From Asaia siamensis (GTDB lineage: Bacteria; Pseudomonadota; Alphaproteobacteria; Acetobacterales; Acetobacteraceae), in NCBI RefSeq assembly GCF_014635085.1, contig NZ_BMCH01000002.1:434001-498000 (forward strand): 64,000 nucleotides of DNA, given 5' to 3'. The translations under genes and the position numbers were made by a program. Shown in pieces: positions 38,833 through 45,265 of this stretch; positions within the stretch are counted from its first letter, which is position 1, and every line of letters starts with the position of its first letter. Below the pieces are notes generated by a model. The model did not search any database. It was given only the letters and a program-made list of their open reading frames with translations, and was not told the DNA's origin.

Positions 38833-40836
38833 TCAGTGACGCGCTGAATACAGCGTTGTCAGGCGATCCGGGGTGTTCGGGATGCGCTCGAGATGGGGCG
38901 AGCGCAGACCGTCATAGTAAGGGATCGAGACGGTGCGGAAATGCGTGTCGGTCTTGATCAGCAGCGTGATGGGCTTCTTGTCCGTCTTGGCGGTTTTCAC
39001 CGCGTCGATCAGACCTTCCGGCGTAAAGGCGTCACCGTTGACGGCCACGATCACGTCATGAATGGCAAGGCCAGCCTTGTAGGCCGGGCTGTCCCAGGCC
39101 ACCGTGCCCAGAGCGCCGTTCTTCGGGTTGATCATCAGGCCCAGTGAGAAGCGCAGGCCAAGGCGGTGGTAGTTCTTGCCGCTTTGCTCGCCGAAATCGT
39201 TTTCCTTGTCGGTATAGACCAGCTTGTAGCCAGAGGCTTCGAGGCCGTTCAGGGGCGCGCGCTTCTGTACGGTGCTGATGCGCTCATGCAGGAACTTGGC
39301 CCAGTCATAGGGCACAACCTTGTTGAGGGTTAGAACCACGTCATCGAACGTATAGGTGCTGACAATGATGCTGCCATCATTGGTGCCGAAAAACGCCTTG
39401 GCGAAATCATCGAGTGATTTCGTGTCATGCGAGAGCTTGCGGATCATCATGTCGGCGTCGAGCCAGACCAACTGACCCTCGACATAGTAATCTTCCGAAC
39501 GCTGGAAATCGCGCCATGAGAGTGGCGAACGCTGCGCGATGATCGGATCATTGGTCGTGTCGGCCACCGGGCGCCAGGTGCGGCCCGACTGGGCGTCATA
39601 GGTGGCAGCCATGAGGGCGAGGGAGTCGAAACCCTGTTCCTTGCTGACGAGGCCCGAACGTGCGGCAAGAATATTGCCCCAGAACTCGGTCTGGCCCTCA
39701 TAGACCCAGAGCAGCGAGCCGCGCTGCGGGGCATTGAAGGTGGCACCATACAGATCAGCCGGGCGGCGATACTTGCCGTTCCAGGAATGGGTGTATTCAT
39801 GCGCCAGCAGATCGCGCTGCGGGAAGGAATGCTTCCAGTCCGTGAAATAGTCTTCGCTCACGCTGTCTTCGCTCGACTGGTGATGCTCAAGGCCGATGCG
39901 ACCCAGCTCATCAGTCAGCGCCATCAGGAAGTCGTAATGCGCGTAATGCTGCGAGCCAAAGGTCAGCAGTGCCTGGGTGACCAGATTGCGGTGAATCTGC
40001 AATTCGGCATCGTCATAGGCCAGGTCACCCGGCTTGTCGGCCACCATGTTAAGCGTGACCGGCACGCCGCCCGGGGCATTCAGCGTAACCTTCTTGAAAT
40101 AGGCGCCTGCGAAGATCGGGGAATCGACCAGCGTGTTGAAGGGCACGGTGCCGAAGGTCAGGGTGTCGCCCGTGGCAGCGCCCACGGGGCGGAGCGCGGT
40201 GGCGGCCTGCCAGCCATGCGGCAGCTTCACGCTGGCCTGAACGGGAATGTCGCGCGAGTAATAGCCAGCCGGATAAAGCGACACCTCGTTCCACTGCACG
40301 TTCACGATATGGGGCGTCATGACGACACGGCCCTCATTGTCGCTCACGGGCGAGAGCAGCTTGAAATCGACATCGATCTGGGTCTGCGCCTTGGTGACGG
40401 GCACATGAAAGGCGAACACATCGACCGGATCGCGCAGCCAGGTGAGAGGCTTGCCCTCAGAGCTGATGGTCAGCCCGCCAAGCTGGGTGATCGTGCCTTC
40501 AGGCGCGTGACCGCCCGGGATCCATTTCGGATAAAGCAGCACCAGCTCACCCGCTTCGCGTGCCGATTGCGGCACGGGCAGCGTCTCATGCATGGTCATG
40601 ACATGATGGTCGAGATCGGTCGCATCGACGCTCAGCTTGAGCGTGCCGGGAAAAGCGACATCCTTGGCCTGAGGCAGCGGCGAGGGAAGGGGCGCGGCTT
40701 CGGGCTGGGGCTGGGCGGCCAGTGCAGGCAGAACGCGCGTGCCAAGCAGCAGGACGGTCAGAAACGTACCGGCGCGGAAAAGACGGATGGTCAAGCAGGG
40801 ATACTCCGGGAAAGGGCTGCAGCTGAAACGGTTCAT
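38833..40836 (-). CDS. M61-family metallopeptidase with PDZ domain
   Basis: About 667 aa, exported (TM/signal segment near residues 18-40, cleavage near PALAA). The M61 N-terminal beta domain is followed by the catalytic HEYTH at about residue 346 (LLAHEYTHSWNGKYRRP) and the downstream Glu in LLWVYEGQTEFWG. A C-terminal PDZ domain begins about residue 550 (GTVAWDSPAYKAGLAIHDVIVAVNG). Family members are glycyl aminopeptidases. ATG 40836 was chosen; a TTG about 45 bases further in has a better GGAG site. Confidence 0.9.
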   Translation of the reverse strand: MNRFSCSPFPEYPCLTIRLFRAGTFLTVLLLGTRVLPALAAQPQPEAAPLPSPLPQAKDVAFPGTLKLSVDATDLDHHVMTMHETLPVPQSAREAGELVLLYPKWIPGGHAPEGTITQLGGLTISSEGKPLTWLRDPVDVFAFHVPVTKAQTQIDVDFKLLSPVSDNEGRVVMTPHIVNVQWNEVSLYPAGYYSRDIPVQASVKLPHGWQAATALRPVGAATGDTLTFGTVPFNTLVDSPIFAGAYFKKVTLNAPGGVPVTLNMVADKPGDLAYDDAELQIHRNLVTQALLTFGSQHYAHYDFLMALTDELGRIGLEHHQSSEDSVSEDYFTDWKHSFPQRDLLAHEYTHSWNGKYRRPADLYGATFNAPQRGSLLWVYEGQTEFWGNILAARSGLVSKEQGFDSLALMAATYDAQSGRTWRPVADTTNDPIIAQRSPLSWRDFQRSEDYYVEGQLVWLDADMMIRKLSHDTKSLDDFAKAFFGTNDGSIIVSTYTFDDVVLTLNKVVPYDWAKFLHERISTVQKRAPLNGLEASGYKLVYTDKENDFGEQSGKNYHRLGLRFSLGLMINPKNGALGTVAWDSPAYKAGLAIHDVIVAVNGDAFTPEGLIDAVKTAKTDKKPITLLIKTDTHFRTVSIPYYDGLRSPHLERIPNTPDRLTTLYSARH

Positions 40837-40922
40837 TACCAAAATGGAAACTGTCTCTCGTGACAACCCATATTAAGGGTTTTATCGCAACTGCCTGCCC
40901 GCTTTCCCAACCGGCGCGCGCG

Positions 40923-43900
40923 TCACACCCGGGTTACAAGGGCAAGATCGGCGCCGATCGCGGCATGATTGGTGGTGACCACCGTCTCACTCAGCAGCCA
41001 TTCGGGTCGCACAGTGTCGAGGTCATAAACCGGCACCACCATGCCTTCACGCGCTGTGATGGTGAGCGCTGCCTGTTCAGCACTTTCCGCGCCGCGCTGG
41101 ATCAGCATCACATCGCATTCCGGCAAGGCGCCCGGATTGACGCGGGTGATCAGATTGGCGAGCTGACGTGAGACCTGACGCAGCCATTCCACCGCTGGAT
41201 CAGGCGCCAGAACCAGCACGGTATTGCCCGTGCCAAGGGCAAGGCCGACCGCGTGCAGCAAGGCAGGCCAGCTTTCACAGGCACAAAGCACGACGCCTTT
41301 AGGACGCAGGCTGTAGCGATTCGTCTCACCCGTGGGGGCGGGCAGATCCAGGCTGAGGCCGCAAAGCCCGTGGGCGATAACGGCGCGCACCTTGCGGGCC
41401 GAAGGCGGGTCTCGTGGTTCGAGAAAGGCCAGAAAGGCCCGCGCTGCTGAAGGCACGGGGGTTTCTGTGGTGGGGGCAAGCGGGCAGGGCGCACCATGCA
41501 TCAGCCGTGGCATGAAAAGCGGCCCGCCAAGCTTCGGCCCCGAGCCGGAAAGACCACGCCCTCCGAAGGGCTGCATTCCCACGCTTGCCCCGATCATCGA
41601 GCGATTGACGTAGATATTCCCCGCACGGCTGCGGGAAGTGGCGCGTTCGAGCGTCTCATGCAGGCGGCTCTGCACACCGAAGGTCATCGCATAGCCGGTC
41701 GCGTTCAGCGCATCGATCACCCCGTCGAGCTCATGACGGGCATAGCGTCTGATATGCAGAACAGGGCCGAACACCTCGAGACCGATATCGGCCACGCGTC
41801 CGATTTCGATCAGGGTGGGCGCCACGAAATGACCGTTCAGCGTTTCGGCCTGCAGATCTGGTTGCCAGACGCGATAGCCTGCCCGTCTCATGCGGTCGAT
41901 ATGCGCTTCGATGCGTATGCGGGCACCCGCCGAGATAACGGGCCCCATATCGCAGCGCAGCTGATCGGGCGCGCCGACATGACGTGCGCTGATGGCTGCC
42001 TTGAGCGCCTCTATCAGCGCATCGGCGCCCTCTTCCTGCACCAGAAGCACACGCAACGAGGCGCTGCGTTGGCCTGCGCTGTCGAAAGCCGACGCGAGAA
42101 TATCGGGAATGACCTGCTGGGGCGATAGCGTGCTGTCAACCAGCATGGCATTCTGTCCGCTCGTATCGGCCAGAAGGGGCACGGGCTGGCCCGTGCGCCC
42201 GGTGCGGCCAAGCAATTCCCGGCTTATCGTCTTGGCCACGGCAGTCGAGCCGGTAAAGAGCACACCGTCTATGCGGGAATCCGCAACGAGAGAGGCGCCC
42301 ACATTCCCTTCGCCCGGCAGAAGCTGGAGCGCGCGAGGGGGCAGGCCCGTCTGCAGAAACAGGGACACGACATGCGCGGCGATCAGCGGTGTTTCTTCCG
42401 CCGGTTTGGCAATCACCACATTGCCCGCGGCAAGGGCGGCGGCAATCTGCCCGGTGAAGCTCGCAAGTGGGAAGTTCCAGGGGCTGATGCACAGGATCGT
42501 GCCGAGCGGGGCGCCGACCAGGCCTCTTTCGGAAAGGCTGCGAAGCTGGGCGCCGTAGTAGCGCAGATAGTCCACCGCCTCGCGCAATTCGTCAGAGGCA
42601 TTGGTAATGGTCTTGCCTGCTTCGCGAACGAGCAGGTTCAGAAGAGCCGTCTGGTCCTGCTCAAGCGCGTCGGCCATCCGGTCGAGATGGGCAGCGCGAT
42701 CTTCGGGTTCGGTGCGGCGCCAGATCTGATCGGTCTCGGCAGCGTTGAGCGCCGCATCGATATCGCGTGGTCTGGCGTAAAGCGCGATACCGACGCGATC
42801 GGCGTGAGCTGCCGGGTTGATGATCGCATGGGGCCGCCCCTCGGCCCGCGGCATGGTCGGTCCCATGGGCACGGCCTGACGAGGGTATGTCGTCCCGGGT
42901 AGACACTCTGCAAGCTGGGCAAGGGTGGCATCATTCGCGAGATCGGGAGCGGTGGCACTCTGCCGTTCGGGCATGGTCAGGTCGCAGGGCAGGGGAATAT
43001 CCGCGTTCGGCATGCCGCGCGGCACAATGATACGTGCCTGAGCGACGGGGTCTGCAATCAGGGCATCGAGCGTGACGAGCCTGTCATAGGCCTGATTGAG
43101 AAACGAGGAGGCAGAGCCTGCCTCGATCAAGCGACGCACAAGAAACGAGGCAAGGCGGCTGTCCGGGCCGATGGGGGTGAGGATCCGACAGGCAATACCG
43201 GCCTGACGGGGGTGCACCAGCGGCGCCAGAAGCGTTTCGCCCATGCCGTGTCGGCAGCCGAATTCGTAGAGACCCGGCGTCCATGGCCCGGCGATTGCCT
43301 GAATGGTCGCGATGCTGCGCGCGTTATGGGTGGCGAATTGCGGATAAAGCGCTTCAGGCGCCTCAAGCGCTCGTTTCGCGCAGGCAATATAGCTGATGTC
43401 GCTATGACATTTGCGGGTGAAGACCGGATAGTCACGCGTCACCTGCGCCTGATTCTGCCGGATCTCATGGTCCCAATAGGCGCCCTTCACCAGTCTCAGC
43501 CCCACGCGTCGACCGGTTTCGGTGCCTGATGTGATGAGATGCTCGATGAGTGGCAGTGCCCGCTTGTCATAGGCCTGCACGGTAAAAGACAGACCGTCCC
43601 ACCCCGCCAGATCGGGCAGGCGGCAGAGCCGGTCGAACAGGTCGAGACTGAGATCGAGCGTCTCGCTGGTTTCGGCATCGACAATCAGGAAAATATTGGC
43701 GGCCTTGGCCCGCGACGCGAGGAGGGTCAGAAAAGGCAGCAATTCCTCCATGACCTGCGCGGTCTGGGACCGCTCGAAACGCGGATGCAGCGAGGAAAGT
43801 CTGAAAGAAAGGGACGGGCGTTCGTATATGGTTTGCCCGCGTCCATGGCGCCCCAGCGTCTCGACCATGGACAGCGCTTCCTGGCGCGCCTGGTCGGCGT

Positions 43901-44534
43901 CTTCTGGCGCCCGCGCTGTTTCACGCAAGGGCGCATAGGCGTGAGAAAAGCCTTCCTGCTCGGCCTTGCGGCTGCGCCTGAGTCCCTGGACCAGCGTGTC
44001 TGCCAGTACGAACTGGGTGCCCATCATCGTGATGGCACGCTCGACCCCGTGCCGGATGAAAGGCGCGCCGCTTTTCAGGGCGAGGCTGCGCAAGCCGCCC
44101 GTCAGCGCGTGAAGGCGCGACGAAGTGGACATCGCCCAGCTCGCGGCACTGAGGAAAAAAGGATGGTTCTGTCCGCCCTGCTGCAGCCAGACGCCCTGTC
44201 CGATCTGGTCCCGTATCAGCGCATCACGCGTGGCCGCATCGGGAATGCGAAGAAGGCTGCCGGCGAGTGTCAGCAGGGCCGTGCCTTCGGGGGAGGTAAG
44301 GGGAAATGCCTGCACCATGGTCTCGACACCTTTGGTGCCGGCTCTCTCGCGCAGCCGAGTGGCCAGAAAGCGCGCCTGCTGGTCGATCTGCTCCAGATAG
44401 GGTTCGCCCAGTGTCGCAGAGACCAGAAGGGCCGCGAGGGCCTCGGCCTCTGGCAGGCGTGAGGCTCGCAGAATGGCCTCGCGCGAAGGGGATGGCGGCG
44501 CCACAGACGGCAGGAAACTGGAAAACGGTGTCAT
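40923..44534 (-). CDS. putA: PutA-like proline dehydrogenase/glutamate semialdehyde dehydrogenase with altered ALDH catalytic site
   Basis: The 1203-aa protein has the PutA layout: PRODH barrel (FTVQAYDKRALPLIEHLI, RLVKGAYWDHEIRQNQ, YPQFATHNARSIATI, LVRRLIEAGSASSFLNQ), ALDH domain (SPWNFPLASFTGQIAAALA, GVLFTGSTAVAKTI, EVFGPVLHIRRY) and a C-terminal ALDH-like tail. There is no N-terminal DNA-binding domain. PutA oxidises proline to glutamate. In the ALDH half the usual GQRCSALRVL is GQRSASLRVL (Ser824, codon 42063-42065), and the general-base Glu is Asp790 in LLADTSGQNAM. The PRODH half lacks a clean DMLGEA motif, and CRIYAP reads CRILTP. A full two-step activity is therefore doubtful. Confidence 0.88.
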   Translation of the reverse strand: MTPFSSFLPSVAPPSPSREAILRASRLPEAEALAALLVSATLGEPYLEQIDQQARFLATRLRERAGTKGVETMVQAFPLTSPEGTALLTLAGSLLRIPDAATRDALIRDQIGQGVWLQQGGQNHPFFLSAASWAMSTSSRLHALTGGLRSLALKSGAPFIRHGVERAITMMGTQFVLADTLVQGLRRSRKAEQEGFSHAYAPLRETARAPEDADQARQEALSMVETLGRHGRGQTIYERPSLSFRLSSLHPRFERSQTAQVMEELLPFLTLLASRAKAANIFLIVDAETSETLDLSLDLFDRLCRLPDLAGWDGLSFTVQAYDKRALPLIEHLITSGTETGRRVGLRLVKGAYWDHEIRQNQAQVTRDYPVFTRKCHSDISYIACAKRALEAPEALYPQFATHNARSIATIQAIAGPWTPGLYEFGCRHGMGETLLAPLVHPRQAGIACRILTPIGPDSRLASFLVRRLIEAGSASSFLNQAYDRLVTLDALIADPVAQARIIVPRGMPNADIPLPCDLTMPERQSATAPDLANDATLAQLAECLPGTTYPRQAVPMGPTMPRAEGRPHAIINPAAHADRVGIALYARPRDIDAALNAAETDQIWRRTEPEDRAAHLDRMADALEQDQTALLNLLVREAGKTITNASDELREAVDYLRYYGAQLRSLSERGLVGAPLGTILCISPWNFPLASFTGQIAAALAAGNVVIAKPAEETPLIAAHVVSLFLQTGLPPRALQLLPGEGNVGASLVADSRIDGVLFTGSTAVAKTISRELLGRTGRTGQPVPLLADTSGQNAMLVDSTLSPQQVIPDILASAFDSAGQRSASLRVLLVQEEGADALIEALKAAISARHVGAPDQLRCDMGPVISAGARIRIEAHIDRMRRAGYRVWQPDLQAETLNGHFVAPTLIEIGRVADIGLEVFGPVLHIRRYARHELDGVIDALNATGYAMTFGVQSRLHETLERATSRSRAGNIYVNRSMIGASVGMQPFGGRGLSGSGPKLGGPLFMPRLMHGAPCPLAPTTETPVPSAARAFLAFLEPRDPPSARKVRAVIAHGLCGLSLDLPAPTGETNRYSLRPKGVVLCACESWPALLHAVGLALGTGNTVLVLAPDPAVEWLRQVSRQLANLITRVNPGALPECDVMLIQRGAESAEQAALTITAREGMVVPVYDLDTVRPEWLLSETVVTTNHAAIGADLALVTRV

Positions 44535-44672: not shown

Positions 44673-44700
44673 GTAAAAAAGGGGCCGTCCAGCCCCTTCT
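44673..44700 (-). terminator. Terminator of the ABM-domain gene
   Basis: On the minus strand AAGGGGC and GCCCCTT form a 7-bp stem around a 6-base loop, then run into TTTT. It lies about 30 bp after the stop codon. Confidence 0.85.
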
Positions 44701-45031: not shown

Positions 45032-45099
45032 GACTTGAAATCCCTTTCGTTTACAGAATTGACTTTTCAGCCCTAATTCTGCGAAGAGTAAACACCGAT

Positions 45100-45265
45100 T
45101 CACGGGAGAGACCGGACACTTTTTCCGGCGCCGAAGGAGCAACCGCCCCGGAAACTCTCAGGCAAAAGGACCGCGATCGGCTGGAACTTCTGGAGAGAGG
45201 CACCTTGATGAGGTGTCCGCCGACGGGATAGCGATCTCAGGCAAAGGCGACAGAAGGGGCGACGA
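45100..45265 (+). promoter_or_regulatory. Tandem glycine riboswitch
   Basis: Two glycine aptamers in series lie directly before gcvT. The first contains GGGAGAG, GCCGAAGGAGCAACCGCCCC and ACTCTCAGGCAAAAGGACCG; the second contains CTGGAGAGAG, GCCGACGGGATAG and ATCTCAGGCAAAGGCGACAG. Glycine binding turns on expression of the cleavage genes. Confidence 0.95.

Follow-up and report, generated by a model that had tools for sequence, protein, structure and literature searches.

PutA, a channelling enzyme that has been studied in detail, possesses two active sites and a tunnel, and a gene for a PutA-like protein in which residues of both sites are replaced raises the question of whether such a protein is still maintained and, if so, in which role. 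We addressed this question for putA2, which lies on the minus strand of a 64,000-nucleotide stretch of Asaia siamensis DNA (contig NZ_BMCH01000002.1, positions 434,001 to 498,000), hereafter the window. An earlier note on this DNA had described an intact frame of 1203 codons with both aldehyde dehydrogenase (ALDH) catalytic residues replaced, and had proposed a maintained pseudoenzyme or a protein with a changed role, not a dead gene. The frame does run from 44534 to 40923 with zero internal stops and encodes 1203 amino acids, and its residues and the selection acting on it suggest that the product is an ALDH-superfamily pseudoenzyme. We hold it highly probable that the protein is maintained and is not a 1-pyrroline-5-carboxylate (P5C) dehydrogenase.

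Active-site residues of putA2 and their distribution

The putA2 product carries, in this order, the Pfam domains PutA N-terminal (PF18327), PF14850, Pro_dh (PF01619) and Aldedh (PF00171), and thereby the succession of N-terminal, proline dehydrogenase (PRODH), ALDH and C-terminal regions of a long bifunctional PutA, an architecture that we take to be the one labelled type B. In phmmer it matches the PutA of Sinorhizobium meliloti (SmPutA) across residues 2-1119. Its scores exceed the cut-offs of NCBI's bifunctional PutA model NF008869 (1033.6 versus 747 bits) and of TIGR01238 (548.1 versus 485.2 bits) and fall below that of the trifunctional model NF008772 (1162.8 versus 1750 bits), and no DNA-binding RHH domain is found among its Pfam hits. 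As it lies above the bifunctional cut-off, putA2 could be annotated as if it were an ordinary enzyme, and a protein without activity might then enter metabolic models as one.

The alignment of the ALDH active site, that is, the glutamate semialdehyde dehydrogenase (GSALDH) site, with SmPutA (PDB 5kf6 and variants; PDB chain numbering equals the paper numbering plus 2) is free of gaps and pairs Glu810 with Asp790, Cys844 with Ser824 and Ser845 with Ala825. This confirms the reported loss of the Cys and Glu that are expected of a type B GSALDH site, and the WNFPL, FTGST and EVFGPV motifs are all retained, as had been read; the best phmmer row is 9c34, the engineered C844S variant of SmPutA. The PRODH differences were likewise real, DMLGEA being replaced by APLRET and the Tyr of CRIYAP by Leu452. 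Among the PRODH substrate residues named in the consulted portion of PMC12398946 (Lys265, Tyr473, Arg488 and Arg489), Lys is changed to Arg and Tyr to Leu in the window copy, and the counterparts of both arginines are kept. Two changes had been overlooked, namely PRODH Lys265 to Arg245 and the carboxylate-binding Ser845 to Ala825.

The genome itself (G000; 3.3 Mb, 18 contigs) contains the normal PutA whose existence the earlier note had envisaged: a second full-length match on a different contig (G000:C5:18875-22429; 44% identity), here called PutA1, with DMLGEA, SIKLSALHPRY, RIYAP, ETGGQN and GQRCSALR all present. Among the 40 relatives searched together with this genome, the two PutA types were found in all eight genomes of the same genus and in G016, as in G000, and PutA1 with canonical ALDH motifs accompanies the altered copy in 10/10 genomes (its frame is split in G007). 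A gene for an Lrp/AsnC-family regulator (L002, 5205-5663, plus strand) is divergent from putA1 in the window's own genome, and none was found among the tested neighbours of putA2.

The replacement of the catalytic pair proved to be a clade trait. Asp and Ser (GQRSASLR) are present in all ten orthologues, from nine Asaia genomes and one Swaminathania, seven of them read in one open frame and three as pieces of frameshifted drafts, whereas the pair is absent from all 52 other PutA rows (only rows longer than 1000 amino acids, nine of them PutA1 of Asaia/Swaminathania), a distribution that is due neither to chance nor to sequencing error. Two split copies outside the 52, PutA1 of G007 and the PutA2 of G070, have Glu and Cys. 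A scan for the exact pattern DT..GQN-75-GQR across contigs of 84,980 species, which variants can escape and which possibly excluded records close to the window's genome, returned nine matches: six from Asaia, one from Swaminathania salitolerans and two chance matches, in Leptolinea and Ktedonobacter, which were dropped as no ALDH reading frame exists at the match.

To describe the extent of the change, we compared the seven intact altered copies with the 52 other rows, taking positions as conserved when at least 96% of the latter agree. All seven copies keep 54 of 112 such positions in PRODH and 110 of 142 in ALDH (Fisher p 1.7e-6, in a test that takes sites and rows as independent, which they are not). 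Within ALDH, E790D, G792S, C824S, S825A and T998S are fixed (7/7) against residues found in 52/52 other rows, A826S against 51/52 and H955Q against 47/52. The counterparts of Asn707, Phe708 and Arg843 are kept in 7/7 copies, as are the lysine, serine and glutamate residues that we presume to function in the NAD motifs, and that of Phe1010 is kept in 6/7 (Tyr in Swaminathania); T998 presumably belongs to the anchor loop. In PRODH, the position of Lys265 is occupied by Arg in four copies and by Cys, Lys and Ala in one each, that of Tyr473 by Leu in five and Met in two, and that of Arg488 by Arg in three, His in two and Asp in two, so that these residues are replaced in 6/7, 7/7 and 4/7 copies, respectively.

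Selection on the gene and its origin

The ratio of nonsynonymous to synonymous substitution rates (dN/dS; NG86, 11 genome pairs that share genomes, the values being rough as many dS exceed 1) lies between 0.018 and 0.375 overall, with 0.054-0.375 for PRODH, 0.054-0.199 for ALDH and 0.018-0.160 for the C-terminal domain. These values, well below 1 in every domain, support the view of a maintained pseudoenzyme. In the altered copy dN is higher in PRODH than in ALDH in 10/11 pairs, and lower in the C-terminal domain than in ALDH in 10/11; PutA1 shows the reverse order (PRODH < ALDH < C-terminal domain) in 10/10 pairs. When the tree was fixed and both genes were represented by the same seven genomes, the within-clade lengths of the altered copy and of PutA1 were 2.10 and 0.68 for the N-terminal region, 2.41 and 0.27 for PRODH, 1.00 and 0.79 for ALDH, and 0.73 and 1.60 for the C-terminal domain. 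The corresponding ratios were 3.1, 8.9 (6.9-10.7), 1.26 (1.07-1.55) and 0.46 (0.35-0.57; ranges are 5-95% of 30 site bootstraps), and unmatched genome sets gave the same order of domain ratios. The gene is thus under purifying selection and not decaying, but the protein is maintained by a different set of constraints, and its conserved core now lies in the ALDH and C-terminal domains. The changed role that had also been proposed gains indirect support from this shift away from PRODH and from ALDH residues that were changed and then fixed.

A protein search of 200 genomes of the family, of which 87 matched at E 1e-280 or better, with reading limited to the best-matching loci, revealed four further PutA2 copies with 54-57% identity (G046, G049, G072 and the frameshifted G070), all with the PRODH and ALDH catalytic motifs kept in the parts present. 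The copies of G046, G049 and G072, acetic acid bacteria of three other genera, are intact with both catalytic sets complete and so, unlike the window copy, keep the examined catalytic residues of both sites. G046 also shares the gene order of the window (putA2-M61-HPrK-RapZ-EIIA-EI, by Pfam labels); RapZ is encoded some 0.6 kb from PutA2 in G070 and M61 about 6 kb from it in G072, and in G049 no other window gene is shared within the fetched 19 kb. In a tree of 59 rows (quick search), the altered clade (SH-aLRT 100) is nested in a ten-row PutA2 clade (100), with G046 as its sister at a support of just 82, and PutA1 of Asaia/Swaminathania branches elsewhere, together with the second G049 copy (100). 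Both G049 copies are in open frames, and at E 1e-60 the search yielded only PutA2 in G046 and G072 and only two PutA2 pieces in G070.

Since intact PutA2 copies occur in three other genera, one of them at the same locus, the ALDH residues appear to have changed in the Asaia/Swaminathania ancestor; PRODH residue loss probably began in that ancestor too, but differs between species. The simplest history starts with two working copies and places the later loss in PutA2, along the stem leading to Asaia and Swaminathania. A recent capture of a foreign PutA is disfavoured, as tree and gene order put the gene in the PutA2 lineage of the same family. The PutA2 of G070 (L093, 8160-11764), from another genus, has complete motifs and is interrupted by a frameshift that reflects either decay or a sequencing error; the genome consists of one contig and gave no further PutA match at E 1e-60.

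Possible roles of the altered PutA

We consider it likely that putA2 encodes a maintained PutA pseudoenzyme that would probably act as an NAD(H)- or ligand-binding sensor or partner through its ALDH and C-terminal domains. The old second PutA would have lost its P5C-oxidising and probably its proline-oxidising residues in the Asaia/Swaminathania lineage, a loss presumably permitted since PutA1 covered proline use, and would thereafter have been retained as a pseudoenzyme. Its ALDH half may still bind NAD(H), as well as, perhaps, some small aldehyde or carboxylate, with no turnover, as does SmPutA C844S, and the protein itself, as a sensor or partner, might pass the bound state on. Taken by itself, the binding or sensor role has somewhat less than an even chance, and its odds overlap with those of a partnership with PutA1, discussed below, which is a special case of it.

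SmPutA provides the closest point of comparison, as it resembles the window protein in length, architecture, gap-free ALDH site, and NAD and oxyanion-hole residues. According to the portion of PMC12398946 that was consulted, its C844S variant has zero GSALDH activity, yet glutamate semialdehyde (GSAL) and NAD+ were bound in the crystal. On this analogy, oxidation of GSAL is not expected of the window protein. The window protein has the same Ser at position 844, but it also differs from SmPutA at Glu810 (Asp), at Ser845 (Ala) and at PRODH substrate residues, and its changes are natural and fixed in the clade whereas that of SmPutA is engineered. The pocket has been reshaped (Asp790, Ser792, Ser824-Ala825-Ser826, Ser998), which hints at a ligand different from GSAL. 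Loss of the side chain of Ser845, which helps to hold the GSAL carboxylate, likewise suggests a change of preferred ligand. We also consider, more tentatively, that a two-site enzyme may have become a new protein, which lost its proline-oxidising chemistry and then gained a fixed Asp-Ser-Ser pocket, a more tightly constrained C-terminal domain and a new function, in ligand sensing or catalysis, that only Asaia and Swaminathania would have.

Precedents exist for parts of this picture. Human ALDH16A1 is likewise an ALDH-superfamily pseudoenzyme without catalytic residues that is thought to be retained for another role, although, in the sections consulted of PMC10650815, it belongs to another ALDH family and lacks the whole catalytic triad, whereas the window protein keeps the Asn. 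Ralstonia PutA is a precedent for PutA as a sensor and regulator (PMC9132996, consulted in part), but binds DNA, and the window protein has no RHH domain among its Pfam hits. The genome paper of A. bogorensis gives Asbog_02561 and Asbog_00494, the latter of which is taken from its position to be the counterpart of putA2, as proline dehydrogenases, and its consulted text does not comment on their catalytic residues (PMC4596401). No report of a catalytically dead PutA was found in open-licence PMC text among the matches listed by title and start of abstract.

Several observations weigh against a maintained sensor or partner with two disabled sites. NAD binding is read from motifs, and the AlphaFold2 models, with a mean pLDDT of 39.0 for the ALDH and C-terminal half (7 rows) and 40.8 for the PRODH half (5 rows), are unusable. 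The shift of constraint is reversed in places, with dN higher in ALDH than in PRODH for the closest pair (G002/G005) and higher in the C-terminal domain than in ALDH for G004/G008. Lys265 is kept in G003, and the counterparts of Asp306, Arg489 and Glu492, as well as of Gln320, Arg347 and Lys350, which we take to be flavin-site residues, are kept in 7/7 copies, so that the altered copy may still bind flavin and have some residual PRODH activity; the death of PRODH is less certain than that of ALDH. Finally, uncompensated single-base deletions are present in the gene in 3/10 assemblies (drafts G001, G006 and G007). These are likely assembly errors, because other genes break in the same drafts (M61 in G001; gcvP in G006; gcvP, HPrK, ABM and PutA1 in G007), whereas the sequence fetched from the other seven genomes, which covers gcvP of G016 incompletely, shows no break in M61, gcvP or gcvT.

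Among the alternatives, the one that survives best, albeit as an unlikely one, is a repurposed enzyme, in which the ALDH pocket would be rebuilt for another reaction, such as a non-covalent redox step or the hydrolysis of an ester or lactone. Ser824 or Ser826 would act there along with Asp790, and NAD(H) would serve either as a cofactor or as a structural ligand. In favour of this reading, six ALDH positions that lie within or close to active-site motifs, each conserved in at least 51/52 rows elsewhere, have become fixed in a new state in 7/7 copies, the remaining ALDH domain is about as constrained as in the intact-motif paralogue, and Asp790 and SASLR are shared by Swaminathania. On the other hand, Ser at the Cys844 position abolished SmPutA activity (PMC12398946, in the part consulted), Asp is shorter than Glu, the fixed changes introduce neither a His nor another base that could assist a nucleophilic serine, and no neighbouring gene indicates a pathway.

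Still less likely is a heteromer of the altered copy and PutA1 in which the former adjusts how active PutA1 is or where it is located, as activator pseudoenzymes are known to do. The co-occurrence of both copies in 10/10 genomes and a C-terminal domain under more constraint than in PutA1 are in line with such a heteromer, but this domain is 28% identical to PutA1 of the same genome versus 64% to the PutA2 of G046 and thus gives no hint that the two have converged on a common interface; in addition, the two genes are on different contigs in G000, and only PutA1 has the Lrp/AsnC gene beside it among the neighbours tested.

A pseudogene slowly decaying after PutA1 took over proline use appears improbable. 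The eroding PRODH half and the frameshifts in 3/10 assemblies and in the PutA2 of G070 would fit decay, yet 7/10 copies are open over the full length although dS exceeds 1 between several species, and each frameshifted draft has at least one of M61, gcvP, HPrK, ABM and PutA1 broken as well, as expected of assembly error. We rejected this explanation on the dN/dS of 0.018-0.375 across all domains and the strong conservation of the C-terminal and ALDH domains. Least probable of all is a working PutA with serine as a weak nucleophile: fold motifs, NAD motifs and some PRODH residues are kept, but both ALDH catalytic residues, the carboxylate-binding Ser and PRODH substrate residues are replaced, C844S disables SmPutA (PMC12398946, consulted in part), and PutA1 with complete motifs is present.

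A natural PutA altered at both sites, which shares its genome with a normal paralogue and has relatives with complete catalytic residues in sister genera, allows direct tests of the functions that the ALDH fold and the C-terminal domain have without catalysis.

Features of the locus and neighbouring genes

Table 1. Features of putA2 and its surroundings (window coordinates)
Feature	Position	Strand	Basis or remark
putA2, putative PutA pseudoenzyme copy, 1203 aa	40923..44534	minus	Open reading frame, Pfam, SmPutA alignment
PRODH domain, residues 166-500, eroding	43035..44039	minus	Conservation and rate comparison
Arg245 for SmPutA Lys265 (PRODH substrate ion pair)	43800..43802	minus	Role from PMC12398946, consulted in part
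Leu452 for SmPutA Tyr473 (PRODH substrate contact)	43179..43181	minus	
ALDH (GSALDH) domain, residues 560-1010; fold motifs conserved, active site altered	41505..42857	minus	
Asp790 (codon GAT) for catalytic Glu810	42165..42167	minus	SmPutA alignment
Ser824 (codon AGC) for catalytic Cys844; then Ala825 (for Ser845), Ser826	42063..42065	minus	
C-terminal domain, residues 1011-1203, unusually constrained in the Asaia/Swaminathania clade	40926..41504	minus	
M61 peptidase gene, directly downstream of putA2, locus marker	38833..40866	minus	Same order in Asaia, Swaminathania and G046
Terminator-like hairpin between ABM gene and putA2	44679..44698	plus in scan	By eye, a T run also follows on minus

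The order HPrK-M61-putA2-ABM-gcvT-gcvH-gcvP is identical in 10/10 cases (the window and nine loci). Several conserved genes near this locus are frameshifted in drafts G001 (L050), G007 (L051) and G006 (L052), and gene-loss claims from these drafts are unsafe. The hairpin upstream of putA2 weakly hints at a promoter of its own; the scan of the region gave numbers close to those of shuffled sequences, with one promoter-like element versus 0.8 expected and four terminator-like elements versus 3.2.

Upstream of gcvT, a glycine riboswitch (RF00504, 67 bits) is located at 45093-45183 on the plus strand and overlaps the 5' part of the long-start ABM open reading frame on the opposite strand; the true start of the ABM gene is probably further in.

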